Shown here: in pieces, positions 3,842-38,554 of the stretch
Layout: every line of letters begins with the position of its first letter
Position numbering within the stretch: position 1 is the stretch's first letter
NCBI RefSeq assembly: GCF_039545795.1
Contig: NZ_CP154260.1
Location: 4,903,001 to 4,967,000 of the forward strand
From: Chitinophaga niabensis
Lineage (GTDB): Bacteria; Bacteroidota; Bacteroidia; Chitinophagales; Chitinophagaceae
Direction: 5' to 3'
DNA: 64,000 nt
The notes under the pieces: model-generated
The model's database searches: none
The model's input: the letters and a program-made list of their open reading frames with translations, nothing else
Told to the model about the DNA's origin: nothing
Made by a program: the position numbers and the translations under genes

Positions 3842-5578
3842 ATGCCCATGAGGAATTTCTCCATTACGCTGCTGCTATCCTGCCTGACCATCTCCGTTTC
3901 AGCCCAGGATTTCACCACCAAATATGAACGTACCAACACAAAAGAGACCGTTACTTACCACGAATGCATTGCTTACTACAAAGCCCTCGTAAAACGCTAT
4001 CCCCAGCTTAAAATGCTGGAAGTAGGGAAAACCGATGCAGGTTACCCCCTGCACCTGGTTGTTCTCTCCCAGGACAAAGACTTCAACTTCGAAAGCCTCC
4101 ATAGAAAAAATAAACGTATCATCCTGATAAACAATGGTATACATCCCGGCGAACCAGATGGTATTGATGCCAGTATGATGCTCCTGCGGGACATTGTACA
4201 GGGAAAGAAGAAATTACCGGCGAATGTGGTACTGGCAGTGATCCCGCTGTATAACATAGGCGGCTCCCTGAACCGGAGTGCTTTTTACCGGGTAGACCAG
4301 AATGGCCCCGAGGAGTTCGGTTCCCGAGGCAATGCCCAGAACCTTGATCTGAACCGGGATTTTATCAAAGCTGATTCCCGGAATGCCCGGGCCTTCCAGC
4401 AGATCTACCAGATGACAGACCCGGATGTGTTTGTAGACAACCACGTGAGCAATGGCGCTGATTATCAACACATCATGACATTACTCACTACCCAGCACGG
4501 TAAACTGGGTGGCGTGATGGGCGAATTCATCCACAAAACCTTTGAACCCGGCCTGTACCGTTTGATGAAGGAAAAGGGTTACGATCTTCTCCCTTACGTC
4601 AACCACTTTGGAGATACGCCGGATAGTGGCTGGGTAGCTTATGCAGATGGCCCAAGATATTCCAGCGGTTATTCTACCCTCTTCCACAGTTTCGGCTTTG
4701 TACCGGAAACCCATATGCTGAAGCCTTACAAACAACGGGTAGAGGCAACATATGCACTTATGGAATGCTTCATCCGGTTCACCAGCGAAAACAGTGAAGA
4801 GATCAGCAGGCTGCGTAAACAAACAAAAGAAGCTGTAAAAACACAGGAAAGGTTCCCGCTCAGCTGGGCAGCTGATATGACCCGGTTTGAGTATTATACC
4901 TTCAAAGGGTTTAAAGCTGGAAGAAAACCCAGTGAGATCTCCGGATTACCCCGGCTCTATTATGATCGCAATCAACCTTACGAGAAACAGATTAAAATAT
5001 TCAACACCTTCACAGGTGGTGATTACGTGAATAAACCGGAAGCTTACATTATTCCGCAGGGCTGGTGGGCAGTGATAGAACTACTGCAGAATAATAAAGT
5101 GAAAATGCAGCAGCTGGCGAATGATACCACCATTGAAGTAGAGGCTTATAAGATCGAAGATTACAAAACACCTCAACGCCCTTATGAAAAACACTACATT
5201 CATAATAGTGTGAAAGTGAGTACCAGCAAGCAAAAGCTCAAATTCCTGAAAGGGGATTATTATGTTCCTATGAATCAGACTGCTAACAGGTACCTCATAG
5301 AAACACTGGAACCAACAGGTGGTGACTCCTTCTTTGCATGGAATTTCTTTGATGCCATACTTGGGCAGAAAGAAGGTTATTCAACGTATGTGTTTGAAGA
5401 TACAGCAGCTGAGTTCCTCAAGCAGCACCCTGAAGTGAAGAAAGAATTGGAGAAGAAAAGAGCGGAGGACAGCACATTTGCACAAAGCGCATCTGCACAG
5501 CTGAATTTTGTATACCGCAATTCTCCCTGGAACGAACCCGGGTTTATGCGTTATCCTGTGTATCGTATTGTTAAGTAA
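3842..5578 (+). CDS. Exported M14-family zinc carboxypeptidase
   Basis: Predicted to remove C-terminal residues from peptides outside the cytoplasm. Residues 1-21 form a signal peptide ending SVSAQ. The M14 zinc motif HPGEPDG gives H101 and E104 as ligands, with the third ligand H201 in VDNHVSNG. N171-R172 in DLNRDF matches the residues that hold the substrate carboxylate, and FVPETHML is a candidate for the catalytic glutamate. The length (578 aa) exceeds a bare peptidase domain by about 200 aa of C-terminal extension with no family I recognise. An ATG six nt later (3848) is an equally good start. It is followed 13 nt later by another exported protein, probably the same transcript. Substrate unknown. 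Confidence 0.88.
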   Translation: MPMRNFSITLLLSCLTISVSAQDFTTKYERTNTKETVTYHECIAYYKALVKRYPQLKMLEVGKTDAGYPLHLVVLSQDKDFNFESLHRKNKRIILINNGIHPGEPDGIDASMMLLRDIVQGKKKLPANVVLAVIPLYNIGGSLNRSAFYRVDQNGPEEFGSRGNAQNLDLNRDFIKADSRNARAFQQIYQMTDPDVFVDNHVSNGADYQHIMTLLTTQHGKLGGVMGEFIHKTFEPGLYRLMKEKGYDLLPYVNHFGDTPDSGWVAYADGPRYSSGYSTLFHSFGFVPETHMLKPYKQRVEATYALMECFIRFTSENSEEISRLRKQTKEAVKTQERFPLSWAADMTRFEYYTFKGFKAGRKPSEISGLPRLYYDRNQPYEKQIKIFNTFTGGDYVNKPEAYIIPQGWWAVIELLQNNKVKMQQLANDTTIEVEAYKIEDYKTPQRPYEKHYIHNSVKVSTSKQKLKFLKGDYYVPMNQTANRYLIETLEPTGGDSFFAWNFFDAILGQKEGYSTYVFEDTAAEFLKQHPEVKKELEKKRAEDSTFAQSASAQLNFVYRNSPWNEPGFMRYPVYRIVK

Positions 5579-6499: not shown

Positions 6500-6742
6500 A
6501 TGATCCCTATTACTATTGTTATCATTGCAGTGCATATCATCTTTGCCATCCGGCTGATGTTCTTTAACCGGCAGGAAGTGAAGAATACAGCAACGGAGCC
6601 TACCTTAACGGAGATCTTCCTTGCAGGTATTGGTATAACGTTGCTTTCGCTGGGGAAAGGCTGGGTCAGTATTGTGACAGCAGCTGCTGTGTGGGCGATA
6701 TCGAAGTTTTATAAAAGTAAAAAGGTAAGTAAAAGTGAGTAA
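6500..6742 (+). CDS. Small membrane protein, unknown
   Basis: An 80-aa product from the ATG at 6500 (a TTG three nt earlier is less likely). Two hydrophobic segments, residues about 2-22 (ITIVIIAVHIIFAIRLMFF) and 40-66, separated by a short polar stretch, with a lysine-rich tail KFYKSKKVSKSE. This predicts a two-pass inner-membrane protein with both ends on the same side. Its last codons overlap the start of the next gene by 8 nt, implying translational coupling. No family recognised. Confidence 0.65.
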   Translation: MIPITIVIIAVHIIFAIRLMFFNRQEVKNTATEPTLTEIFLAGIGITLLSLGKGWVSIVTAAAVWAISKFYKSKKVSKSE

Positions 6743-10387: not shown

Positions 10388-11680
10388 TTAATTGATCCTT
10401 CTCTGTTCCACCCATGCCGCAATTCCCAGCATCACCAGGCCACAGGCCAGTAAACGGGTAATGTCCTGCAAGATGAACTTTATATCTCCATTCCTTAAAT
10501 AAACATCATTTATCGCATCCAGGCCCCAGCTCAAAGGAGATAACCTTCCTATGGTCTGGATCTTCTCCGGCATGATCTCCAGTGGTATCCAGATGCCGCC
10601 GATGGCGCTCAGGATCACAATGGAAATAGCACCAAAGTTCAGTGCCTGGTTGGGTGTTTTAAATATCGTACCGATCAGAATGCCATATGCCGTAGCTGTA
10701 ATGCTGATACTTAAAGCTGTTATGAATCCTGCCCAATGGTCCACTCCCAGTTGCAATGCCGGGAGGCCCAGCAGTGGCATACCGTAAATGCCCACGGCAA
10801 TCATCAGGTAGAATTGTATTACGCAGATGCCCACAAAGAACAGGAGTTTGCCGGAGAGGATAGAAAGATAATTACCGGGAATGAGTTTCATCCTCACCAG
10901 GCTGCCGTCTTCCCTTTCGCGGATCATGTTACCTGCAATGGGGATCACAATGAAGAACATGGCGAAGATGCTCCATGCCGGTACATTGTGCTGCACGGAA
11001 TTGGAGATCACATCTATCTCCTGGTTTTTGCCCAGGTTGGTTTCCTGCAAGCCTACTGCTTTAAGTTTGATGGCAGGGAAGGTATCTGTTGCCGTACTGT
11101 CCTTACTCCTCAATTGCATCTGGATGCGTTCCAGCAGCAGGTCTGTTTGTACCTGCGTGAGAAAATTATCCAGGGCCTGGCGGATAGCGCTTTTGAATGC
11201 TTTCTTGGCTGCGGGGTCGAAGTAAAGTTGTACTGCCAGTGAATCTGAGGCGATGGCCTTTACCGGCAGCTGTGCCGGAATGCCCATTCTTTTGGAGATA
11301 TCGTTCACTATCTTATTGGCATTGCTGACAATCTCTGCCGTGCTGCCTTTGGGGATAACGATGCTGATCTTATAATGCCCTTCTCCTATTAATGTTTTAG
11401 CTGTTGCTTCACTTACAGGCTGGTTATTTAATGAATCTATCACATTAAATTGCCCGCTGCTACCCAAGCCTTCCCTGATGTAACGCCCCAGCCTGCCATG
11501 ATCGTTATCCACGGTGAGGATATCGAACTTCACTTCCTGGTAATCTTTAAATGGCGCATCCTGTATAAGGGCCATTACCGTGATGAGGATCAGGGGCATT
11601 GCAAAGAGCAATGCCAGTCCCGCTTTATCCCTCAGGAGCAGCAGCCATTCTTTTCGTATTGTTGCAATGAGCCTTAACAT
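10388..11680 (-). CDS. ABC-2 type transporter permease
   Basis: A 430-aa membrane subunit. The N-terminal transmembrane helix (LLLLRDKAGLALLFAMPLILITVM) is followed by an extracytoplasmic loop of about 200 aa. Five further helices follow, starting at AWSIFAMFFIVIPIAGNMIREREDGSLVR, which carries the signature coupling region of ABC-2 permeases, and ending ITRLLACGLVMLGIAAWV. It starts 6 nt after its ATPase. This topology is typical of exporters of lipids, drugs and polyketides. By context it probably exports the dialkylresorcinol or an intermediate, which is inference. Confidence 0.92.
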   Translation of the reverse strand: MLRLIATIRKEWLLLLRDKAGLALLFAMPLILITVMALIQDAPFKDYQEVKFDILTVDNDHGRLGRYIREGLGSSGQFNVIDSLNNQPVSEATAKTLIGEGHYKISIVIPKGSTAEIVSNANKIVNDISKRMGIPAQLPVKAIASDSLAVQLYFDPAAKKAFKSAIRQALDNFLTQVQTDLLLERIQMQLRSKDSTATDTFPAIKLKAVGLQETNLGKNQEIDVISNSVQHNVPAWSIFAMFFIVIPIAGNMIREREDGSLVRMKLIPGNYLSILSGKLLFFVGICVIQFYLMIAVGIYGMPLLGLPALQLGVDHWAGFITALSISITATAYGILIGTIFKTPNQALNFGAISIVILSAIGGIWIPLEIMPEKIQTIGRLSPLSWGLDAINDVYLRNGDIKFILQDITRLLACGLVMLGIAAWVEQRRIN

Positions 11681-27979: not shown

Positions 27980-28031
27980 ATTAGAACACATACGCTCTAA
28001 CCCGATTTTACAACATCATCAAAAAACCGAC

Positions 28032-29255
28032 ATGAAAAAAGCATTATTCCTTCTATTCCTCCTACCCCTGTTTGCTATAGCCCAGGACAAGGGTATACAC
28101 TTTGAACATGGATTATCCTGGAAAGAAATACAGGCTAAAGCCAAAGCTGAAAACAAATATATCTTCATTGATTGCTTCACTACCTGGTGCGGCCCCTGCA
28201 AGTATATGACCGCCAACATTTTTCCACAGCAGGAAGTAGGTGATTTCTTCAATAGTAAATTCATCAACGTAAAATTACAGATGGATGTAACGGAAGGGGA
28301 TAATGAAGAAGTGAAAAAATGGTATGAAGATGCCAAGGCTATTGGAGAGCAATATAGCGTTAGGGCCTATCCTACTTTCCTCTTCTTTGCGCCGGATGGC
28401 AAAGTGGTACACCGCATGGTAGGTGGTGGCGAAGCAGAAGCTTTCATTGCCCGCAGTAAAGAAGCGCTGGATCCCACAAAACAATATTATGTGCAACTGG
28501 CCAAATATGAACAAGGCAATAAAGACGAGGCCTTCCTCCGCAGTTTTGCTTTGACTGCATTAAATGCCTATGATTCAAAAACAGCACAGGCAGTATCCAA
28601 AGAATACTTTGATACACAGAAAGATCTTTTCACGAAAGACAACCTGGAGATGCTGGCTAAGTTCACCCGTACCAGCAAGGACAAAGGGTTTGCTATTTTC
28701 CTGAATGAGTCTGCCAAGGCCAATAAAATATTGGGTAAGGGCAAAGCGGAAGGAATTGTAGGTAGCATTGTCAGCAATGAAGAAATATATCCCAAGGTCT
28801 TTAAGAAAGATGCCGGAGCTCCGGACTGGGCTGTACTGCAATCTGAGCTGACTGCTAAATATCCTAAGCTGGCGGATGAGCTGATAGCTAAAAGCAAAGT
28901 GATCTATTATGCCAATAAAAAAGATGCTGAGAATTCTGTGAACAGCATTGTAGCTTATATGAAGAAATATAGCGACAAGGCCAGTCCAATGGATCTGAAC
29001 CAGTTTGCCTGGACGATCTTTGAAAGCTGCAAGGATATGAAGTGTGTGGAAGAGGCGCTGGAATGGAGTAAACGTTCTTTTGCTGAAAACCAGGATCCGA
29101 ATTTCATGGATACTTATGCGAACCTGCTTTACAAGCTGGGCCGTAAAGATGAAGCGATTGCCGTGCAGGAGAAAGCGGTGAGCCTCGCGAAGGATAAGAA
29201 GCCTTTGGAAGAGACGCTTAATAAGATGAAGAAGGGGGAGAAGACCTGGAATTAG
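28032..29255 (+). CDS. Exported thioredoxin-family protein with helical C-terminal half
   Basis: A 407-aa periplasmic thiol-disulfide protein. Signal peptide MKKALFLLFLLPLFAIAQ; the ATG at 28032 is chosen because longer versions hide it. The thioredoxin domain (about residues 25-155) has the redox site TTWCGPCKYM (C53, C56), a cis-proline in VRAYPTFLFF, and an extended insertion as in DUF255/thioredoxin_7 proteins. Residues about 170-407 are helical with TPR-like features near the end (MDTYANLLYKLGRKDEAI). It probably reduces or forms disulfides in exported proteins. It ends in a strong terminator. Confidence 0.9.
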   Translation: MKKALFLLFLLPLFAIAQDKGIHFEHGLSWKEIQAKAKAENKYIFIDCFTTWCGPCKYMTANIFPQQEVGDFFNSKFINVKLQMDVTEGDNEEVKKWYEDAKAIGEQYSVRAYPTFLFFAPDGKVVHRMVGGGEAEAFIARSKEALDPTKQYYVQLAKYEQGNKDEAFLRSFALTALNAYDSKTAQAVSKEYFDTQKDLFTKDNLEMLAKFTRTSKDKGFAIFLNESAKANKILGKGKAEGIVGSIVSNEEIYPKVFKKDAGAPDWAVLQSELTAKYPKLADELIAKSKVIYYANKKDAENSVNSIVAYMKKYSDKASPMDLNQFAWTIFESCKDMKCVEEALEWSKRSFAENQDPNFMDTYANLLYKLGRKDEAIAVQEKAVSLAKDKKPLEETLNKMKKGEKTWN

Positions 29256-29277
29256 TTTTCTTTCTTTGAGAATAGTT

Positions 29278-29307
29278 AAAAGGATGGCTTCGGCCGTCCT
29301 TTTTTTA
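29278..29307 (+). terminator. Intrinsic terminator after the thioredoxin gene
   Basis: Stem AAAAGGATGGC (29278-29288), tetraloop TTCG, GCCGTCCTTTT (29293-29303) with one T-G pair, then further T residues. Confidence 0.93.
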
Positions 29308-29331
29308 TGGGATCCTGTTCATCCTACATAG

Positions 29332-29361
29332 AAAAAGTGTCAGGAGAAAACTCCCGACACT
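29332..29361 (-). terminator. Intrinsic terminator for the S24 repressor gene
   Basis: Arms 29336-29346 and 29351-29361 pair (AGTGTC, one A-C mismatch, GGAG) around an AAAA loop. On the minus strand the hairpin is followed by TTTTT (29336-29332). It lies about 215 nt beyond the repressor stop, with the tandem repeats in between, so those repeats would be transcribed as a 3' untranslated region. Confidence 0.85.
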
Positions 29362-29393
29362 TTAATGGTTAACTGGGGGCAAACAATGCATTC

Positions 29394-29581
29394 TTTAGTT
29401 CCCTTGCATATGACATTGGTATCAACCTATGTCAAAATCTTTAGTCCCTTGTATATGATGCTATGATATCTTATGGCAGGACTTTTAGTTCTCCTGCATA
29501 CGATACTGTGATATCTTATGTCAGAACCCTTTTTAGTTCCCTTGCATACGATACGATGCTATCCTATGGCAAGATCTTTAG
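29394..29581. repeat. Four imperfect ~45-bp tandem repeats at the 3' end of the S24 repressor gene
   Basis: TTTAGT(T)C blocks begin units at 29394, 29440, 29484, 29532 and a truncated one at 29577, giving unit lengths 46, 44, 48 and 45. Each unit continues CCTTGCATA(T/C)GA, then a GATATCTTATGTCA-like segment. The last start coincides with the repressor's stop codon (29580-29578), so on the minus strand every unit begins with the gene's own end, AACTAAA. This 322-nt gap holds only these repeats and two terminators. Confidence 0.85.
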
Positions 29582-30336
29582 TTCTTCATCTGTTTCTTGA
29601 GCATGCTCACCTGATCCTGCAGCTGGCTGACCATGCCTGCGAGGTGGTTTACACTCAGGCGGTGCTGCTGGCCCATTTTCTGGATCACGGCATCTGCCTG
29701 CCAGATCTCGAGTACTTCTTCCATGTTTACGGGGTATGGATCGTACTGCGGGTTATCTGAAACGAGCGTTACTTTACTTTTGGAGCGGTTGCTTTTCACC
29801 ACGCGCTTGTACACAATGCCTTCGCGGTTGGTGACTACGATATACGCTTCGTTATTGCGGATATCTTCCCAGCCATCCACTTTGTGGCAGACTACTACAG
29901 AGCCTGATGGTGTCGGTAACATGGAGTCTCCGGCTATTTCGAAAGCCCTGTAACTTCCGGCACCTAACATGGGTAAGGTGAAGGTGTTCAGTTCTTCGAT
30001 GAATTCGTCATCATTAAAACCTGCCAGGTAACCGGCAGCGGCTTTAACGGGAACGAAAACAACATTCTGCCGGTCTTTGCTACCTCCCATCTTTTGCTGG
30101 CGGCGTCTTTCCAGGAAGCTTTCCTTCGAGGAACTCAGATCGCGGCGTAACAGATCATCGATGGATACACGGAACATGTCTGAAACCTGCTCCAGTACTT
30201 CGGTACGTGGTTCTGCCCGTTCTTCTTCATATGCTCCCAACAGGGAACGTTTAATGGAAAGACGGTCGGCGAACTCCTGCTGCGTCCAGCCTTTTTGCTT
30301 GCGCAGATATTTAAGATTACGACAAACAGTAGACAT
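29578..30336 (-). CDS. S24-family (LexA/CI-like) transcriptional repressor
   Basis: A 252-aa regulator. Residues 5-62 form an XRE helix-turn-helix (NLKYLRKQKGWTQQEFADRL, then IKRSLLGAYEEERAEP). Residues about 92-215 form an S24 peptidase domain with S138 in EIAGDSMLPTP and K177 in GIVYKRVVKSN. An Ala-Gly pair at 101-102 (VKAAAGYLAGF) lies 36 residues before S138, close to the spacing of LexA cleavage sites, so damage-induced self-cleavage is plausible. A short C-terminal coiled coil follows (MVSQLQDQVSMLKKQM). Its promoter carries two CTAA-N5-TTAG palindromes that recur before dinB 1.5 kb away, so it probably represses itself and dinB-dnaE. Confidence 0.93.
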   Translation of the reverse strand: MSTVCRNLKYLRKQKGWTQQEFADRLSIKRSLLGAYEEERAEPRTEVLEQVSDMFRVSIDDLLRRDLSSSKESFLERRRQQKMGGSKDRQNVVFVPVKAAAGYLAGFNDDEFIEELNTFTLPMLGAGSYRAFEIAGDSMLPTPSGSVVVCHKVDGWEDIRNNEAYIVVTNREGIVYKRVVKSNRSKSKVTLVSDNPQYDPYPVNMEEVLEIWQADAVIQKMGQQHRLSVNHLAGMVSQLQDQVSMLKKQMKN

Positions 30337-30338
30337 CC

Positions 30339-30351
30339 CTAAATAATTTAG
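30339..30351. promoter_or_regulatory. Operator 1 of the S24 repressor gene
   Basis: CTAAATAATTTAG is a perfect CTAA-N5-TTAG palindrome, 3 nt upstream of the repressor ATG and just downstream of the predicted start site. With its right flank it shares an identical 16-bp block (30339-30354, minus strand ATACTAAATTATTTAG) with the dinB promoter. Confidence 0.75.
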
Positions 30352-30361
30352 TATGGTAATG

Positions 30362-30374
30362 CTAACAAAATTAG
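30362..30374. promoter_or_regulatory. Operator 2 of the S24 repressor gene
   Basis: CTAACAAAATTAG, a second CTAA-N5-TTAG palindrome (extended by one pair to GCTAA...TTAGC). It covers the predicted -7 element of the repressor promoter and is centred 23 bp from operator 1. Confidence 0.72.
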
Positions 30375-30398
30375 CAATTATTTTTTATAATTACCAAA
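30366..30398 (-). promoter_or_regulatory. Promoter of the S24 repressor gene
   Basis: On the minus strand TTTG (30398-30395), 21 nt, then TAATTTTG (30373-30366) fit the Bacteroidota consensus. The -7 box lies inside operator 2, so bound repressor would block it. Confidence 0.7.
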
Positions 30399-30447
30399 TT
30401 ATTCTTGGGTTGTTCACTTATTTTTGTTGCAGACAAACTCAATTATT

Positions 30448-30912
30448 ATGCAAGATACTTTGTTAGGTATTCACTCAGTGGTTAGATGGCTGATCCTGTT
30501 ATTCGGTGTATGGGCTGTTATTCGTGCAGTGATGGGCGTTAGTAGCAAATCTGCCTATACCGCAGCGGATACTAAAGCCGGCCTTTTCTTTATGATCTTT
30601 TTAGATATTCAGTTCCTGCTGGGTATTATCCTGTTCATCGTAAGCCCGCTGATCAAAGCTGCTACGTCAGATATGGGTGCCGCTATGAAAAATGCCGGTC
30701 TCCGTTTCTTTACCGTGGAGCACACCCTGATGGCATTAGTGGCTTTAGCCCTTGTACATATCGGCCGTAGCAAGATCAAAAAATCTGCTTCCGATGCCAA
30801 AAAACATAAAACAGCGCTGATCTTTTTCGGTCTTGCCCTGATCCTGATCCTGGCCCTGATCCCATGGCCCGGACGTGAGGCTGTTGGCAGAGCGTTGGTT
30901 CCTTCCTTCTAA
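30448..30912 (+). CDS. Four-helix membrane protein, unknown
   Basis: A 154-aa inner-membrane protein from ATG 30448; a TTG start 24 nt upstream would add a non-hydrophobic tail. Predicted helices are about residues 10-32 (VVRWLILLFGVWAVIRAVMG), 43-65, 90-110 (FTVEHTLMALVALALVHIG) and 124-143. Histidines H8, H95 and H107 lie at helix ends, and the arrangement resembles cytochrome-b-like or DUF420-type four-helix proteins, but no family is certain. A -7-like TATTTTTG lies at 30419-30426. It diverges from the S24 repressor across 111 nt, so the same operators might also touch its expression. Confidence 0.75.
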   Translation: MQDTLLGIHSVVRWLILLFGVWAVIRAVMGVSSKSAYTAADTKAGLFFMIFLDIQFLLGIILFIVSPLIKAATSDMGAAMKNAGLRFFTVEHTLMALVALALVHIGRSKIKKSASDAKKHKTALIFFGLALILILALIPWPGREAVGRALVPSF

Positions 30913-30927
30913 ATAATTCATTGATAT

Positions 30928-30964
30928 AAAAAAGCCGGGTACGCTGTGAGTACCCGGCTTTTTT
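30928..30964 (+). terminator. Strong intrinsic terminator (bidirectional)
   Basis: Perfect 15-bp stem: 30928-30942 (AAAAAAGCCGGGTAC) with 30950-30964 and a 7-nt loop, A run on one side and T run on the other. It ends the membrane protein gene. Confidence 0.95.
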
Positions 30965-30966
30965 GT

Positions 30967-30996
30967 TTAAAAGAGACCGTCTTACCAGACGGCCTC
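30967..30996 (-). terminator. Intrinsic terminator for the SdpI-like gene
   Basis: Stem 30973-30982 (GAGACCGTCT) with 30987-30996, one A-C mismatch, 4-nt loop. On the minus strand it is followed by TTTT. It lies 55 nt beyond the SdpI-like stop. Confidence 0.75.
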
Positions 30997-31051
30997 GTAA
31001 AAATAGGAGCGGGTGCTTGCCATCAACCCTGCTCTTCTGGTTCATAATGCA

Positions 31052-31726
31052 TTACCCATGTGTAACATAGAAAAGTCGGTATGAATAGATATAAGGCAAT
31101 GCAGCCAAAGCCATGGCGGCAAAAATAAACATGAACACGCCGCTCACCACTGTCAGGAACATCCCGGCTATAACGATCACGATCCCCGCATACAGCCACA
31201 ATTTGCCCGCAAAAGCATGTACTTTCAGCCAGATCTCATCACTTTGCATGGTCCAGGGTGTTCGGACCCCCACAAAGTTATTGGGCTTCAGGTTCCGCAG
31301 TACTAAACCGATCATCGAGATCAGTAATCCCACCCCGATAAATACCCATTTTTCCAGGAATATTCCCCGGCCCACGCTCACCAGGTATATAATAATGGTA
31401 GTGAATACCGCCAGGTAAATATGGATCCTGAAACGGATACGATAGTACGCCTTTATGTGGTTGGCCGTTTCAATAGCCGGCTCTTCCTTTTCGTCCGGTT
31501 TGGGGATATACCGGAACAGAAAATACAGCAGGCCGTTTGTGAAAAAAAGAAAGATCATCAGCAGCAGAAATTCCTGCTTATCCCCTACCCTGTCAGGCAC
31601 GCCGTTCAGATTATAATTGGTGGGAATGATCTCCGGGAGGCTGTTCCAGATAACGCCCAGATAAACCATGGGCACAAATACAAGCAGTAACAGCAGTAGT
31701 TCTTTAACGTAATCCGGATGTTTCAT
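31052..31726 (-). CDS. SdpI/DUF1648-family membrane protein
   Basis: A 224-aa inner-membrane protein. The N-terminal DUF1648 unit is a helix followed by GVIWNSLPEIIPTNYNLNGVPDRVGDK. The C-terminal SdpI domain has the hallmark NNFVGVRTPWTMQSDEIW between helices. Six helices are predicted. In Bacillus subtilis SdpI gives immunity to the SdpC toxin and signals to its regulator; in Bacteroidota the family is widespread and its role is unknown. It diverges from dinB over 128 nt, next to the two dinB operators, so shared control is possible but not shown. Confidence 0.9.
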   Translation of the reverse strand: MKHPDYVKELLLLLLVFVPMVYLGVIWNSLPEIIPTNYNLNGVPDRVGDKQEFLLLMIFLFFTNGLLYFLFRYIPKPDEKEEPAIETANHIKAYYRIRFRIHIYLAVFTTIIIYLVSVGRGIFLEKWVFIGVGLLISMIGLVLRNLKPNNFVGVRTPWTMQSDEIWLKVHAFAGKLWLYAGIVIVIAGMFLTVVSGVFMFIFAAMALAALPYIYSYRLFYVTHG

Positions 31727-31799
31727 ATGAAAAAGGATTAGTTGTACATATATATCTACATTATTCGGGCCAATTAAGTTTAAAAAGGTTTATTTTCTA

Positions 31800-31812
31800 C
31801 TAACTACATTAG
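31800..31812. promoter_or_regulatory. Distal operator of dinB-dnaE
   Basis: CTAACTACATTAG matches CTAA-N5-TTAG and is centred 18 bp upstream of the proximal palindrome. It is in the position where a -33 box would be expected; no TTTG is present there. Confidence 0.68.
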
Positions 31813-31813
31813 C

Positions 31814-31838
31814 AATACTAAATTATTTAGTATTTTTG
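31814..31838 (+). promoter_or_regulatory. Proximal operator and -7 element of dinB-dnaE
   Basis: 31814-31834 is a perfect 21-bp palindrome about T31824, with the core CTAAATTATTTAG at 31818-31830. Its right end merges with TATTTTTG (31831-31838), a full match to the -7 consensus TANNTTTG, 16 nt before the dinB ATG. A repressor on the palindrome would directly occlude RNA polymerase. Confidence 0.78.
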
Positions 31839-31854
31839 GTTCAAATAAGTGTGT

Positions 31855-33081
31855 ATGCTACTAGATGGACAGAGAACCATAGCTCATATCGACATGGATT
31901 GTTTCTTCGTGTCCGTGGAGTGTCTTAAGGATCGCAGTCTGAAAGGAAAACCCGTATTGGTAGGCGGGCGTGGAGACAGAGCTGTAGTAGCCGCCTGTAG
32001 TTATGAAGCCCGTACTTTTGGGATCCATTCCGCCATGCCCATGAAAATGGCCCTCCGCCTATGCCCTCATGCTATCATCCGCGGCGGGGATATGGAAGAA
32101 TACAGCAATTTCTCCCGTCATGTTACCGATATTATTGCAGGTAATGCCCCATTATATGAGAAATCGTCCATTGATGAATTTTACCTGGATATCAGCGGCA
32201 TGGATAAATATTTTGGTTCGCTGAAATGGGCAAGTGAATTGCGGCAAAAGATCATGCGCGAAACCAAACTGCCTATTTCATTGGGGCTTGCTTCCAACAA
32301 AATGGTGTCGAAAGTCGCCACAAATGAAGCCAAACCAAGTGGTCAGTTATCCATCCCTTTCGGGCAGGAAAAAATATTCCTGGCACCGATGCCTATTGAC
32401 AAGATACCCATGGTAGGAAAAGAAACCGCGGCACAATTAAGGCGCCGCGGAGTGGAAACAGTGAAAACACTCAGTGAGATCCCCATTGGTTTACTGGAAG
32501 CCTGGTTGGGTAAAAACGGTATTTCCCTTTGGAACAAAGCCAACGGTATTGATGAAACTCCGGTGGTCCCTTTCCACGAACAAAAATCTATTTCTACGGA
32601 AAGTACTTTCTCTACGGATACTATCGATATGGATTTTATTCATAGTGAACTGGTGCGCATGACGGAAAAAGTGGCATTTGAACTCCGCCAGCAGAACAGG
32701 TTAGCAGGTTGTGTGACAGTTAAGATCCGGTACTCGGATTTTGAAACCGTTACCAAACAAATGAGTATTGCCTATACCGCCAGCGATCATGTATTGCTGG
32801 AAAAAGTAAAAGAACTCTTCTCTAAACTGTACGACCGCCGTTTGCTGATCCGGCTGATAGGCGTGCGTTTCAGCCATATGGTGTCCGGTAATTACCAGAT
32901 CAGTCTTTTTGAAGACACGCATGAAATGATCTCTTTATACCAGGCGATCGATAGTATCAAAAGTCAGTATGGCTGGCAATTGCTGATGCGTGGCAGTAGC
33001 AGTGGCGGCAGGTTTGAAGAGGAGCTACAGCCTTATCAGAAGAAAGAAACATTCACCATGAAACGCCGTTACCCCAAATAG
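31855..33081 (+). CDS. dinB: DNA polymerase IV (Y family)
   Basis: A 408-aa translesion polymerase. Catalytic acidic residues are intact: HIDMDCFFVSVE (first Asp D13) and SSIDEFYLDISG, so it is an active polymerase and not the catalytically dead ImuB type. The finger/palm segment includes SYEARTFGIHSAMP and GLASNKMVSKVATNEAKP, followed by the helix-hairpin-helix region (IPMVGKETAAQLRRRGV) and little finger. The C-terminus lacks an obvious beta-clamp pentapeptide beyond QISLFE (about residue 348). I chose ATG 31855; a GTG two codons earlier is possible. It is 3 nt before dnaE, so one operon, under two palindromic operators. Confidence 0.96.
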   Translation: MLLDGQRTIAHIDMDCFFVSVECLKDRSLKGKPVLVGGRGDRAVVAACSYEARTFGIHSAMPMKMALRLCPHAIIRGGDMEEYSNFSRHVTDIIAGNAPLYEKSSIDEFYLDISGMDKYFGSLKWASELRQKIMRETKLPISLGLASNKMVSKVATNEAKPSGQLSIPFGQEKIFLAPMPIDKIPMVGKETAAQLRRRGVETVKTLSEIPIGLLEAWLGKNGISLWNKANGIDETPVVPFHEQKSISTESTFSTDTIDMDFIHSELVRMTEKVAFELRQQNRLAGCVTVKIRYSDFETVTKQMSIAYTASDHVLLEKVKELFSKLYDRRLLIRLIGVRFSHMVSGNYQISLFEDTHEMISLYQAIDSIKSQYGWQLLMRGSSSGGRFEEELQPYQKKETFTMKRRYPK

Positions 33082-33084
33082 CTT

Positions 33085-36051
33085 ATGTACCTGAATTGCA
33101 AAACCTGGTTCAGCCTTCGCTATGGCACGATCAGAACAGATGAATTAGCGGCATTGGCACAGCAGTGCGGGATCACTTCCCTGGCACTCACCAATATCAA
33201 TGCCACTACAGATGCCTGGATGTTCATACAGGAATGTATGCAGCGGGACATTAAACCTATCCTTGGGCTGGAATGCAGGAACGGCGCCGCCTTCCGTTAT
33301 GTGATCCTGGCCCGTAACATGGAGGGCTGGCTGGAGATCAATCGTTTCTTATCACATCATCTGCAAACAGAAACACCCTTTCCCGAGAATGCACCTTTTC
33401 TCCCGCATACATTTGTGATCTATGCATGGGGAAGCCGTCCGCTGCAGGATCTTGCTGAACACGAATTGATGGGCGTACGGCCAAGGGAAGTGAACAAACT
33501 CTTCCGTTTTGACACCAAAAAATGGGCACATAAACTCGTGGTATTACAACCACTCACTTTCCAGGACAAGGAAGCACAACAACTGCACCGGGTATTAAGG
33601 GCGGTAGACAATAATCTGTTGATCAGTCAGCTTCCTGCGGAAGAAGTAGCAGGCCTGGATGAATGTTTTATTTCACCGTATCAGTTACTGGAACATTTTA
33701 GGGAATTGCCGGACATTGTAAAGAACACGCTAACGATCATGGAAGCCTGTGAGATCCGCTTCCGGTTCGGCAATCATTTAAATAAACAACGTTTTACAGA
33801 CAGCCGGGAAGGAGACCGGGAATTATTACGAAGTGAAGCCATGCGGGGTATGATCTACCGTTACGGCCCGGATAATAAAGAAGCGAAGGAAAGAGTGGAA
33901 AAGGAATTGCAGATCATTGACCAGCAGGATTTCAACGCTTATTTCCTCATTACCTGGGACATTGTGCGTTATGCCAGGAACAGGGGCTTTTTTCATGTAG
34001 GGCGTGGAAGTGGCGCCAATTCCGTGATCGCGTATTGCATGGAGATCACGAATGTGGATCCCATTGAACTGGATCTTTATTTCGAACGTTTCCTTAATCC
34101 GCATCGTACCTCTCCTCCTGATTTTGATATTGATTTTTCCTGGCGGGACAGGGACGAAGTGATCCAATATGTTTTTGATAAATACACAACAGCACACGCT
34201 GCCTTGTTAGGCACGGTTACTACATTCCAAACAAACGCTATCGTAAGGGAATTGGGCAAGGTATACGGATTGCCTAAAAAAGAATTGGACAAAATCCTTG
34301 AGAACCCTTACCAGGTGAAACTTGGGGAAGACGGCGTGCATCAGCGTATTATCCAATACGGCAGGAAGCTGGACCGTTTTCCCAATCACCTCAGTATTCA
34401 CGCAGGCGGTATCCTGATCAGTGATGCTCCCATTCATCAATATTGCGCAACGCATATGCCGCCAAAAGGATTCAGTACGGCGCAACTGGATATGCATATG
34501 GCAGAAGCCATCGGCTTATTCAAATTTGATCTCCTGAGCCAGCGAGGGCTGGGGCATATCAGGGATACCATGGACCTTATCCGTGAAAACAAAGGTCAGG
34601 AGGTTGATATCAATGATGTAAAAACCTTCATGGAAAATGAAGATGTAAAAAATGCCTTGAGAACGGTTAACACTATCGGTTGCTTTTACATAGAATCTCC
34701 TGCCATGCGACAGCTGCTGCTGAAACTGAAATGTGATGATTACATTACCCTGGTGGCAGCGAGTTCTATTATCCGGCCCGGCGTTGCACAGGCTGGTATG
34801 ATGCGGCAATATGTACTGAACTTCCATGCGCCGGATAAGGTGAAATACCTTCACCCTATTATGAAATCCCTGCTGGGAGAAACATATGGCGTAATGGTGT
34901 ACCAGGAGGATGTGATCAAAGTAGCACATCATTTTGCAGATATGGACCTTGCTGATGCAGATATTTTAAGAAGAGCGATGGCAGGTAAATACCGGGGACA
35001 GAATAATTTCGAGAAGATCAAAAAACTGTTCTTTGATAACTGCGCCAGGATAGGACATCCTGAAGAGATAAGCCAGGAGGTATGGCGGCAGATAGCCAGC
35101 TTCGCGAACTTCTCTTTTTCAAAAGCACACTCCGCCAGTTTTGCAGTAGAGAGTTACCAGAGCTTATACCTGAAAACATTTTTCCCTGCGGAATTCATGG
35201 TAGCGGTGATCAATAATTTCGGCGGGTTCTATAACAGAGAATTGTACTTCCGGGAATTGCAGAAAACAGGTGTGGCCTTATTTCCTCCCTGCATCAATAA
35301 CAGTGATTATGCTACCAATATCAAAGGCCGGCAGGTATTTGTGGGTTTCATTCATGTAGAAAGACTGGAGCAGGCATGGATGGAACGAGTACTCCTGGAC
35401 CGTAAGCACAACGGGCTTTACAGCAGTCTTGAGCATTTTGTGGAAAGAACCGATCCCGGTGCGGAGCAACTGGAGATCCTTATCCGTATCGGGGCATTTA
35501 ACTTTACCGGCTACACTAAAAAAGAACTGCTCTGGAAGAGTGCTGTTTTATTGAGAACAGCGCCACCGGATGAAAACAAACCCCGGCTCTTTGCAGAACC
35601 TTCCCGCAGCTGGGATCTTCCCATGCTCTCCTATCGCCAGCATGAAGATGCTTTTGATGAAATAGAATTACTGGGATTTCCATTGTGTTCCCCATTCGAC
35701 ATACTGGAACATGACCATCGCAGATATATGCCTGCCAGGGATTTTTCGCAGAACCTTGGAAGGCATGTGCATACGATCGGTTACCTGGTATGTTTAAAAC
35801 ATGTATACACCAGTAAAAACGAACCCATGTGTTTTGGTACTTTCCTGGACAAGGAAGGTGACTTCATGGACACCGTACATTTTCCGGACAGCCTGCGGCA
35901 ATATCCATTTATGAAAAGTGGTTTCTATATTATGGAAGGCAGGGTAATGGAGGAATTTGGGGTGTATACCTTAGATGTACATGTGATGCGGAAGATCGGG
36001 TACTTTGAGGATAAAACTCCTGGTGCCGCCGTACAGATGATGGCGAGGTAG
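33085..36051 (+). CDS. DNA polymerase III alpha-like subunit (DnaE2-type, error-prone)
   Basis: A 988-aa C-family polymerase, shorter than replicative DnaE (about 1160-1200 aa). The PHP domain at the N-terminus has lost the metal histidines: where DnaE reads HxHSxxS this one reads LNCKTWFSLRYG (residues 3-14), so no proofreading activity is expected there. The polymerase site is intact: VGRGSGANSVIAYCMEITNVD, SPPDFDIDFSWRDRDEV (Asp near 347-349) and AIGLFKFDLLSQRGLGH. A C-terminal OB fold is present (IGYLVCLKHVYTSKN, then FGTFLDKEGDFMD). Pairing with a Y-family polymerase in a repressor-controlled operon parallels ImuB-DnaE2 mutagenesis cassettes. Confidence 0.93.
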   Translation: MYLNCKTWFSLRYGTIRTDELAALAQQCGITSLALTNINATTDAWMFIQECMQRDIKPILGLECRNGAAFRYVILARNMEGWLEINRFLSHHLQTETPFPENAPFLPHTFVIYAWGSRPLQDLAEHELMGVRPREVNKLFRFDTKKWAHKLVVLQPLTFQDKEAQQLHRVLRAVDNNLLISQLPAEEVAGLDECFISPYQLLEHFRELPDIVKNTLTIMEACEIRFRFGNHLNKQRFTDSREGDRELLRSEAMRGMIYRYGPDNKEAKERVEKELQIIDQQDFNAYFLITWDIVRYARNRGFFHVGRGSGANSVIAYCMEITNVDPIELDLYFERFLNPHRTSPPDFDIDFSWRDRDEVIQYVFDKYTTAHAALLGTVTTFQTNAIVRELGKVYGLPKKELDKILENPYQVKLGEDGVHQRIIQYGRKLDRFPNHLSIHAGGILISDAPIHQYCATHMPPKGFSTAQLDMHMAEAIGLFKFDLLSQRGLGHIRDTMDLIRENKGQEVDINDVKTFMENEDVKNALRTVNTIGCFYIESPAMRQLLLKLKCDDYITLVAASSIIRPGVAQAGMMRQYVLNFHAPDKVKYLHPIMKSLLGETYGVMVYQEDVIKVAHHFADMDLADADILRRAMAGKYRGQNNFEKIKKLFFDNCARIGHPEEISQEVWRQIASFANFSFSKAHSASFAVESYQSLYLKTFFPAEFMVAVINNFGGFYNRELYFRELQKTGVALFPPCINNSDYATNIKGRQVFVGFIHVERLEQAWMERVLLDRKHNGLYSSLEHFVERTDPGAEQLEILIRIGAFNFTGYTKKELLWKSAVLLRTAPPDENKPRLFAEPSRSWDLPMLSYRQHEDAFDEIELLGFPLCSPFDILEHDHRRYMPARDFSQNLGRHVHTIGYLVCLKHVYTSKNEPMCFGTFLDKEGDFMDTVHFPDSLRQYPFMKSGFYIMEGRVMEEFGVYTLDVHVMRKIGYFEDKTPGAAVQMMAR

Positions 36052-36077
36052 GCTTTTCTCCATCATATATACATCAA

Positions 36078-36116
36078 AACAGGCTGTACCCTTTTATGGA
36101 TACAGCCTGTTCTTTT
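36078..36116. terminator. Bidirectional intrinsic terminator
   Basis: Stem 36078-36088 (AACAGGCTGTA) with 36101-36111 and a 12-nt loop, then CTTTTTG. It ends dnaE on the plus strand and, with TTTTG on the other side, aspartate kinase on the minus strand. Confidence 0.9.
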
Positions 36117-36132
36117 TGTTTCTTTTATTCTA

Positions 36133-37455
36133 TTAATCGAGATTGAATAATCCTTTGTTCAGTAAGCGTAAGGTTTGTTCCTTATACTGTCCACCTACGA
36201 GGATAGAGATGTTATGCCTGCTGCCACCATAGGAGATCATGCGCAAAGGCACTTCTTCCAGTGATTCAAATAACTTCTTGATGATGGAAGGCGTAGCGGC
36301 TACTTCATTTCCTACGATAGAAACAATCGCCTGGTGGTGATCCAGTTCCACAGAGCCAAAGGGCTGCAGTTCTTTCAGGATCTGCTCCAGGTGTTTTTTA
36401 TCATCGATGGTGATAGAAACAGCTACTTCGGAAGTAGTGATCATATCGATGGGTGTGCGGTATTTTTCAAACACTTCAAAGATCTTACGGAGGAAACCGT
36501 AGGCCAGCAGCATACGGCTGCTCTTGATCTTGATAGCGATGATACCATCTTTTGCAGCGATAGCTTTTGCACCGTTACCATCCGGCATTTCCGTGATGAT
36601 GGTACCTTTTGCTTCCGGCTGCATGGTGTTGAGCAATTTAACAGGGATGTTAAAATGCTGTGCAGGCCAGATAGATGCAGGGTGCAGGATCTTGGCGCCG
36701 AAATAAGCCAGCTCAGCTGCTTCATCGAAAGACAGCTGATCGATGGGGAAAGTTTTCTTTACAACACGGGGATCGTTATTATGCATACCATCAATGTCCG
36801 TCCAGATCTGAATTTCAGAAGCCTGGATAGCGGCACCTATCAGGGATGCAGAGTAATCACTGCCACCTCTCTTGAGGTTATCAATTTCACCGCGTGCATT
36901 GCGGCAGATGTATCCTTGCGTGATGAAGAGCGTATGACCTTTTTCCTGATCAACCAAAGCACTGAGGCGGACTTTCATGCGTGGGATCTCAGGTTCTTCA
37001 AACTCATCGATACTCATGAATTCCAGTGCGGGGAGCAAAACTGCTTTGATACCGGCATCTTCCAGGTAAGCGCAGAAGAGTTTGGTAGAGAGCAGTTCAC
37101 CCTGTGCCAGGATATCTTTATTCAAGGCTTCGTTGAAAGAGATGCGGAGGATGATGTTGAGGAACTCAAAATGTTCGTCTACGATGGCTTTAGCCTTTTG
37201 GCGGCCGGCATCACTTTTCACCAATTCATCACAGAAAGTACGGTAGTGTGCTTCCAGCTTGTCTATCTGCTGTTTAGCCACGTCCTTCTTTCCTTCTGCG
37301 AGCGATTGACTGATCTCAACGAGGGAATTGGTTGTGCCAGATAAGGCGGATAATACCACAATCTTGGCATCGTTATCCGCTGTTATCAACTTCGCTACGG
37401 CATGCATACGCTCTGGTTTTCCAACCGAGGTTCCGCCAAATTTCAAGACTTTCAT
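36133..37455 (-). CDS. lysC: Aspartate kinase
   Basis: Phosphorylates aspartate, the first step to lysine, threonine, methionine and diaminopimelate. The 440 aa start MKVLKFGGTSVGKPERM (kinase nucleotide loop), with FITQGYICRNARGEIDNLKRGGSDYSAS and EIQIWTDIDGMHNNDPRVV in the amino-acid kinase domain. Two C-terminal ACT domains (about 300-440: IIAIKIKSSRMLLAYGFL and HQAIVSIVGNEVA) suggest feedback control. This is the monofunctional form with no homoserine dehydrogenase. It lies 22 nt downstream of the Ldh-family gene on the same strand and ends at a shared terminator. Confidence 0.96.
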   Translation of the reverse strand: MKVLKFGGTSVGKPERMHAVAKLITADNDAKIVVLSALSGTTNSLVEISQSLAEGKKDVAKQQIDKLEAHYRTFCDELVKSDAGRQKAKAIVDEHFEFLNIILRISFNEALNKDILAQGELLSTKLFCAYLEDAGIKAVLLPALEFMSIDEFEEPEIPRMKVRLSALVDQEKGHTLFITQGYICRNARGEIDNLKRGGSDYSASLIGAAIQASEIQIWTDIDGMHNNDPRVVKKTFPIDQLSFDEAAELAYFGAKILHPASIWPAQHFNIPVKLLNTMQPEAKGTIITEMPDGNGAKAIAAKDGIIAIKIKSSRMLLAYGFLRKIFEVFEKYRTPIDMITTSEVAVSITIDDKKHLEQILKELQPFGSVELDHHQAIVSIVGNEVAATPSIIKKLFESLEEVPLRMISYGGSRHNISILVGGQYKEQTLRLLNKGLFNLD

Positions 37456-37477
37456 TAATTGTTACGGTATATGTTGC

Positions 37478-38554
37478 TTAAAAATCGATTTTAAATCTCA
37501 TGGCTATTTCGGAGAGGTCCCTTACTACAGGGTCCAATAAAGGAACACCAGTTACTCTCCTGTCTGCTTCCATTTCCCTTTCCGGATCGCCGGGGATCAG
37601 TACTTTTTCTTCTCCTTCCACCGTTTCGGCACTTCTGAACCTGCCGATCCATTTATCCATATGGTCTTTAAATTCGTCTGCCGGCCTGAAAGCGTCTACC
37701 CGCATGGCTCCGAAGAAATGTCCCAGTCCTTTTCCCACCGGATCGGGCGGCAAAGGTAAGAAACTAACGAATGGCGGCGCCCATGGACCATAATTTGCGC
37801 CCGAAAGTACGGCAGAAAAAATATCTACCACAGATCCGAGGCAATATCCTTTGTGGCTTCCATGTTCCCGGTCGCCTCCCAAAGGCAGCAAAGCCCCGCC
37901 ACTCTTGAGTTCGTTGGGATTTGTGCTGGGAGCACCGTGTTTATCCTGGATCCAGCCCAGTGGGGCTTCCTGTTCTTTTCTTTGTAATATTTCCAGTTTG
38001 CCGTTAGCAGCCGTAGTGGTGGCAAAATCCGCCACAAAAGCCGGTTGCTGATTAGCCGGGATGGCTACGGCAATGGGATTGGTGCCCAGCATACGTTCCG
38101 TGGCAAAAGTGGGCGCTACGAGGGGGCTGGCATTGGTCATTGCCATTCCGATCATATCCTGCTGCAGGGCCATCATAGCATGATAACCTGCAATACCGAA
38201 GTGATTGGAATTACGGACACTTACCCAGCCGGTACCGGCAATTTTAGCTTTATCGATGGCCACCTGCATGGCAAAAGGGGCCACTACCAGGCCAAGGCCG
38301 CTATCACCATCCACCACAGCAGTGCTGGGGGTTTCGTGAACGATCTTAATATCCGGTTTGGCGTTGATACGGCCGGCTTCCCAGAGACGGATATAACCGG
38401 AAAGGCGTGCCACGCCATGAGAGTCTATTCCCCTGAGATCCGCAGAAAGCAATACCGTGGAGGCCAGTTCTGCATGTTCGGGGGAACAGCCCATTTTTAT
38501 AAAAACGTCCCGGGTAAAAGCGTGGAGATGTTCGTAGGGAAAAACCTGTTCCAT
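37478..38554 (-). CDS. Ldh-family (malate/L-lactate/ureidoglycolate-type) NAD(P)-dependent oxidoreductase
   Basis: A 358-aa member of the YlbC/AllD/ComC family, unrelated to classical malate dehydrogenase. The family signature LLSADLRGIDSHGVARLSGYI holds the catalytic His in DSHG. VDGDSGLGLVVAPFAM, SVRNSNHFGIAGYHAMMAL (NSNHFG) and LGTNPIAVAIPA are the conserved cofactor and substrate segments. Substrates in the family include malate, sulfolactate, ureidoglycolate and delta1-piperideine-2-carboxylate; none can be chosen here. The start overlaps the DUF3467 stop by one base, and aspartate kinase follows 22 nt later, so a three-gene operon is likely. Confidence 0.93.
   Translation of the reverse strand: MEQVFPYEHLHAFTRDVFIKMGCSPEHAELASTVLLSADLRGIDSHGVARLSGYIRLWEAGRINAKPDIKIVHETPSTAVVDGDSGLGLVVAPFAMQVAIDKAKIAGTGWVSVRNSNHFGIAGYHAMMALQQDMIGMAMTNASPLVAPTFATERMLGTNPIAVAIPANQQPAFVADFATTTAANGKLEILQRKEQEAPLGWIQDKHGAPSTNPNELKSGGALLPLGGDREHGSHKGYCLGSVVDIFSAVLSGANYGPWAPPFVSFLPLPPDPVGKGLGHFFGAMRVDAFRPADEFKDHMDKWIGRFRSAETVEGEEKVLIPGDPEREMEADRRVTGVPLLDPVVRDLSEIAMRFKIDF

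Follow-up and report, generated by a model that had tools for sequence, protein, structure and literature searches.

The window, by which we mean the whole 64-kb stretch of Chitinophaga DNA that was analysed, carries the gene of an S24-family repressor on the minus strand and, on the plus strand, the genes of two DNA polymerases, dinB and a dnaE-type gene, which presumably belong to one operon (Table 1). The ATG at 31855 is a more likely start for dinB than the GTG at 31849 given in the list of open reading frames (ORFs). Two further genes separate the repressor from dinB, and similar genes are found at the same place in many loci of the genus. An Rfam search of positions 28000-37500 returned no match. 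A scan of 30900-31900 for sigma-70 promoters and terminators gave nothing above shuffled sequence, as expected for a phylum that uses other promoters.

Table 1. Genes, operators and promoter elements at the repressor and dinB-dnaE loci of the window
Feature	Position	Strand	Evidence or remark
Imperfect tandem repeats (about three, 45-48 bp)	29440-29585		At and just past the 3' end of the repressor gene
S24-family repressor, 252 aa (non-canonical LexA)	29578..30336	-	Pfam HTH_3 5.5e-13, Peptidase_S24 2.4e-10
Proximal operator, repressor gene	30339..30351	.	2 bp 5' of the repressor ATG
Distal operator, repressor gene	30362..30374	.	Minus-strand letters CTAATTTTGTTAG include the -7 box
-7 box TAATTTTG (TAnnTTTG)	30366..30373	-	Within the distal repressor operator
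Gene between S24 and dinB	30424-30912	+	Hydrophobic by eye; upstream region common with the S24 operators
Gene between S24 and dinB	31052-31726	-	SdpI/DUF1648 domains
Distal dinB operator	31800..31812	.	Exact motif match
Proximal dinB operator	31818..31830	.	Core of 21-bp palindrome 31814-31834
dinB -7 box TATTTTTG	31831..31838	+	Fused to the proximal operator (TTAG-TAnnTTTG)
dinB, Y-family polymerase	31855..33081	+	Pfam IMS 1.1e-48; NCBIfam PRK02406 DNA polymerase IV above cut-off
dnaE-type polymerase, 988 aa	33085..36051	+	Pfam DNA_pol3_alpha, PHP; NCBIfam polc superfamily above cut-off

The repressor combines a Cro/C1-type helix-turn-helix (HTH), an Ala101-Gly102 pair, Ser138 and Lys177, and a predicted C-terminal helix. 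The four residues that an earlier note had picked out from the sequence as suited to RecA-stimulated cleavage are where it placed them, and A101, G102, S138 and K177 are invariant in all 43 rows of an S24 alignment (the window protein being included twice). No NCBIfam model scores above its cut-off for this protein. We considered canonical LexA as its identity and ruled it out: the LexA DNA-binding domain (LexA_DNA_bind, PF01726) has no match in the window's genome or in 24 other genomes of the genus (25 of 25 without), and the repressor matches HTH_3. Among 40 relatives the domain was matched in two, both from other families (G036 and G048), with one match above the cut-off. In the genome collection, the titled proteins closest to the repressor belong to Chitinophaga barathri (94% identity) and C. 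rhizosphaerae (92%); 63 of the best 80 relatives are titled Chitinophaga or other Chitinophagaceae, and 17 carry a wider or other group name. Many relatives in the genus also encode another S24 protein of about 35-41% identity (e.g. G001:C1:4010343-4011038), and the threshold that reveals it in them gives a single S24 match in the window's genome.

A structure model built from a 7-sequence alignment was poor (pLDDT 65.5) and one from 32 sequences reached 73.0. In a fold search the latter resembled the repressors of phages 186 and lambda and LexA at the level of domains only, as full-length matches had low TM-scores; the TM-score with the C-domain of Mycobacterium tuberculosis LexA was 0.75 (by target length). 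A C-terminal helix is predicted at residues 229-251, at a local pLDDT of about 50-55 and in a monomer model, and a 3-4 hydrophobic repeat can be seen in it by eye. As modelled, this helix could pair repressor dimers, and it may correspond to the extra C-terminal helix that sets the non-canonical LexA group apart from LexA and CI.

An exact scan finds the motif CTAA-N5-TTAG at the four operators of Table 1 and gives no further match in the 64 kb, in agreement with the earlier note, which had located these four sites and noticed no other copy. Shuffled sequence is expected to hold 0.80 sites (sd 0.86) and reached four in 1 of 100 shuffles, so that the count alone is just mildly unusual. The finer architecture reported by that note is also borne out: the 21-bp palindrome, AATACTAAAT T ATTTAGTATT, is exact and its operator is abutted by a -7 box, and a 16-bp block, ATACTAAATTATTTAG, is identical in the two promoters. 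Transcription of the repressor would start near 30361, which would put the proximal operator at about +11 to +23 of the transcript, and TTTG at 30395-30398 may be the -33 element of this promoter. For dinB, a start near 31843 would place the distal operator at about -43 to -31.

In the whole 7.2-Mb genome the motif occurs 41 times, against 94 for a reversed-pattern control, and 14 of the 41 sites form seven close pairs, 18-24 bp apart from start to start. These pairs stand at the S24 repressor gene (23 bp), dinB (18 bp), three umuD genes (21, 22 and 21 bp), a splB-like radical SAM gene (21 bp) and radC/prs (24 bp; prs was named by eye). The other 27 sites are single. One exact site lies upstream of recA, another upstream of a parE-like gene (named by eye) and another just before a umuC-like gene; 15 of the 27 are inside ORFs (at least 60 aa, drawn by script) and 12 outside. 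With no genome-wide enrichment of the single motif and many copies inside ORFs, not every site is an operator. Whether the motif is frequent at random intergenic positions, a question that the earlier note had raised against itself, receives a divided answer: the motif is not enriched genome-wide, but of the 12 single sites outside ORFs few are near likely SOS genes and most have no obvious SOS neighbour. A second, distant dinB paralogue of this genome served as a negative control, and its 4-kb locus contains no site even when one mismatch is allowed; in two relatives the paralogue had one one-mismatch site per 4-kb locus.

Pairing is a general feature of the genus. All 60 genomes examined carry pairs, three to seven each and 264 in total, and in 260 of these the gap is 5-11 bp, that is, 18-24 bp from centre to centre. 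The reversed-pattern control gave nine pairs at gaps of 0-30 bp in the same 60 genomes and none at 5-11 bp. As the single motif is not enriched, the signal sits in the pair. Within the family but outside the genus, pairs occur in 12 of 17 genomes (20 pairs, against one for the control). The rest of the order has 19 pairs in 15 of 131 genomes, against 33 control pairs in 27 genomes, and several of the 19 stand at dinB, S24 or splB-like genes; in the rest of the class, pairs were found in 9 of 194 genomes against 7 for the control. Since perfect pairs fade beyond the family, frequent perfect pairing is mainly a trait of the Chitinophagaceae.

Loci of S24 and dinB genes were also retrieved by protein similarity. 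Each of the 30 genus S24 loci returned, the window's own included, has an exact pair with a spacing of 20-23 bp. Among the best 80 S24 relatives, the pair is exact in 61 (spacing 20-24 bp) and has no more than one mismatch in each site in 11 others; seven have a single exact site and one has none. The 28 closest, grouped as Chitinophaga with one titled Flavihumibacter, all have exact pairs; two rows titled as C. pinensis metagenome-assembled genomes (60-62% identity) were placed outside this group. For dinB, 30 genus loci were returned. An exact pair stands upstream in 29 of them, at 18 bp in 20 and at 19 bp in nine, and the remaining locus has an exact and a one-mismatch site 18 bp apart; in one locus (L145) about 370 bp separate the pair from the start of the dinB match that follows. 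The N5 letters differ among these dinB pairs. The footprint that the earlier note had predicted for dinB promoters of relatives with the S24 gene is therefore kept in the genus. Most umuD, splB and radC rows were picked by the pair pattern itself, so that they inform on spacing and not on the frequency of pairing.

Two side observations concern operators in other genomes. In the dinB promoters of another family (L064-L067 and L098; five loci from four genomes) the operators are 14 bp apart (TTAG-G-CTAA). A gene similar to 2'-5' RNA ligase (PF13563) is found near operators in three genomes, with a single site in one (L012:2018) and pairs in two (L108:2005-2039 and L084:2019-2054), the last with a radical SAM gene after the ligase-like gene.

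The promoter of recA (loci L358-L416) is organised differently. The protein was matched in 40 of 40 genus genomes, and we examined the best 30 loci and two further ones. Exactly one perfect operator is present in 31 of these 32 promoters and a perfect pair in none of the 32. In all 31 a second site lies 29-32 bp upstream and has exactly one mismatch; when the 60 bases upstream were shuffled 300 times, at most two recA rows had such a distal site. The mismatch is almost always in the same place: the distal site reads CTA[T/C/G]-N5-TTAG, at 29-31 bp, with the fourth position alone altered in 30 of 32 (T in 18, C in seven, G in five) and the second position in one more. On a quick recA tree this fourth position changed at least nine times among the 30 rows.

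In other genera we covered 27 recA promoters, the best-scoring among 112 matched genomes. One exact site was found in 24, two in two and none in one. A distal site at 21-24 bp with at most one mismatch is present in 17 of 26, including the two perfect pairs (at most two in shuffles), and with at most two mismatches in 24 of 26 (at most four in shuffles). Here the altered letter is often a C at position two (CCAA-N5-TTAG type), seen in 14 of 24 scorable promoters. Outside the genus, a perfect pair is thus seen more often at S24 genes, with 33 of 52, than at recA genes, with 2 of 27.

The earlier note had presented the locus as a candidate new SOS-type switch. The operator and the class of regulator have been in print since 2021, along with gel shifts and evidence of induction by mitomycin (Sanchez-Osuna et al., 2021; PMC8565304), and the switch in the window is a member of this known system. 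In that study CTAA-N5-TTAG was identified ahead of the dinB/umuC and umuD genes of Bacteroidetes and assigned to an S24 repressor whose HTH is of the phage type, termed non-canonical LexA. The S24 protein of a relative bound the motif in gel shifts and lost binding when either dyad was changed, the regulator bound its own promoter, and mitomycin induction was seen in relatives (PMC8565304). Chitinophagaceae are listed there among the families with large regulons, and two or more copies of the motif in several promoters had already been remarked; dinB-dnaE operons were placed under a sister motif, GGA-N5-TCC, and imuA-imuB-dnaE2 under CTAA-N5-TTAG (PMC8565304). We are highly confident that the window carries the published SOS circuit of Bacteroidetes in its Chitinophaga form. 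The reading of the locus as an autoregulated damage switch is well supported, with an S24 gene that has intact cleavage residues, operators at its own promoter, the same operators at dinB-dnaE and footprints in relatives, and so is the observation that its operator differs from the classical LexA boxes; the claim of novelty is not.

By analogy with these relatives, binding and damage induction would be expected in the window's organism as well. The S24 repressor would sit, through its phage-type HTH, on CTAA-N5-TTAG at its own promoter and at that of dinB-dnaE, with dimers lying over the -7 box and over either the upstream part of the promoter or the leader of the transcript. DNA damage would generate RecA-ssDNA filaments, which would stimulate cleavage at Ala101-Gly102 and release the genes, and autoregulation would reset the switch. 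Pairing of the operators would tighten repression.

There are two main readings of how the pairs act. According to the first, to which we give an even chance, there is no cooperativity and each operator covers a separate part of the promoter (upstream element, -7 box, early transcribed region), which sets the distance between them. The -7 box of Bacteroidetes has the consensus TAnnTTTG (PMC9723704), and the register of the pair to this box is fixed for S24 and dinB across the genus. In all 30 genus S24 promoters the distal operator contains an exact TAnnTTTG at a constant offset, from which the nearly fixed spacer letters of this operator would follow. At dinB the box abuts the proximal operator at the same offset in all 27 genus pairs scored, a count that leaves out L126, L130 and L145 (exact in 18, one mismatch in nine). 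Several umuD and splB-like promoters have a box between the operators, mostly with one mismatch, but several umuD rows, L078, L082 and L105 among them, have none within one mismatch there. Nor does this reading by itself explain the conserved imperfect distal site of recA, upstream of the likely promoter. Given these class-specific registers, promoter geometry probably has at least as large a part in the spacing as contacts between dimers have.

The second reading, that two dimers bind cooperatively in the manner of lambda CI, perhaps through the C-terminal helix, we take to be a serious possibility that falls slightly short of an even chance. The distance of 18-24 bp that prevails in the genus is about two helical turns, and both the phage and LexA repressors returned by the fold search and the hydrophobic repeat of the helix are consistent with it. 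On the other side, the range of spacings exceeds half a helical turn and varies by gene class, which is easier to reconcile with promoter geometry than with a fixed protein contact, and the helix comes from a monomer model at low confidence. That the sites belong to another regulator, with the S24 gene a mere target, is very improbable: binding by the window's own repressor is a prediction here, but the S24 protein of a relative binds the motif in a dyad-dependent manner (PMC8565304), and the S24 promoter itself carries the pair in every genus locus returned. Chance palindromes in A+T-rich intergenic DNA, for which the shuffle result and the lack of enrichment of the single motif might be invoked, are excluded as the origin of the pairs by the genus-wide comparison with the reversed-pattern control and the recurrence of the same gene classes, and the probability we leave them is negligible.

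We read the distal recA site as an operator that may have been kept weak. The SOS response of Chitinophagaceae could then be a graded two-operator code, in which the repressor and error-prone polymerase genes would have two perfect operators at class-specific spacing and selection would hold the second recA site imperfect, so that recA would be available early and the mutagenic genes would open late; we offer this tentatively, as a proposal somewhat more likely to fail than to hold. The largest published induction is that of error-prone polymerases (PMC8565304), which fits a tighter repression of paired promoters. In the same study no apparent induction was seen for recA of S. agarivorans, a species that uses the other motif. 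Against the graded code, imperfect sites of the CCAA type are also found at the S24 gene in 7 of 52 relatives (L185, L189, L191, L192, L196, L212 and L220), and the distal letters at recA may serve otherwise, for instance as a promoter element.

Viral contigs hold at least 120 stretches with the pair pattern, in a scan run without the reversed-pattern control, and by eye most of them look like chance. A relative (E up to 1e-6) of one of the twelve regulon proteins compared is encoded in four of the 120 viral stretches listed. Three contigs deserve mention. In L233, A+T-rich pairs at 726-761 and 6606-6639, 5.9 kb apart, each lie just upstream of an ORF, and this phage may be tied to a host SOS repressor. 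In L239 a pair (4665-4698) stands just before a umuD-umuC-like operon, and L301 has two adjacent pairs (10519-10601).

Our core result matters mainly because a circuit described in 2021 was recovered independently, with raw sequence as the starting point. As far as our literature searches show, the stereotyped pairing and the imperfect partner at recA are unreported and look new: the Results and the first part of the Discussion of PMC8565304 contain no analysis of pair spacing, of the -7 register or of an imperfect second recA site, and a phrase search for the name of the motif returned this paper alone, in a literature collection short of subscription journals. The architecture makes it possible to test how a single repressor that lacks the canonical LexA fold could determine in what order SOS genes open and how tightly they are shut, and the imperfect recA site lends itself to a one-base experiment. 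Since single copies are not enriched genome-wide, annotators of this family should seek pairs of operators.

Several known repressors bear comparison with the one described here. HdiR and UmuDAb are also S24 proteins other than LexA that act on error-prone polymerases; as described, they are set apart by belonging to other clades and by their minimal regulons (PMC8565304). Canonical LexA of the E. coli type follows a similar logic, an autoregulated repressor with a self-cleavage signature set over translesion polymerases, but the window's genome has no match to its DNA-binding domain and uses another operator. The operators of E. coli LexA differ in binding kinetics and timing (PMC5999292).

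Phage repressors of the CI type (lambda, 186) share the HTH_3-type N-terminal domain and the S24 C-terminal domain. Lambda operators stand in adjacent groups, and CI binds adjacent operators cooperatively. Unlike these phage proteins, the window repressor would govern a host-wide regulon. A close phage relative of it was sought in a phage collection and rejected, as the 31 matches were weak, all below 60% identity and none covering 80% of the protein.

The closest counterpart, likened by description, is the non-canonical LexA group of Pontibacter actiniarum WP_025606010.1, which has the same operator, the S24 Ala-Gly and Ser-Lys residues, a phage-type HTH and autoregulation, and with which the regulon described here has dinB, umuDC, recA, splB, radC and topoisomerase IV as common targets (PMC8565304). 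The window repressor displays four features of this group: Peptidase_S24 with its residues, HTH_3 (PF01381), the motif at its own promoter and operators at core SOS genes.
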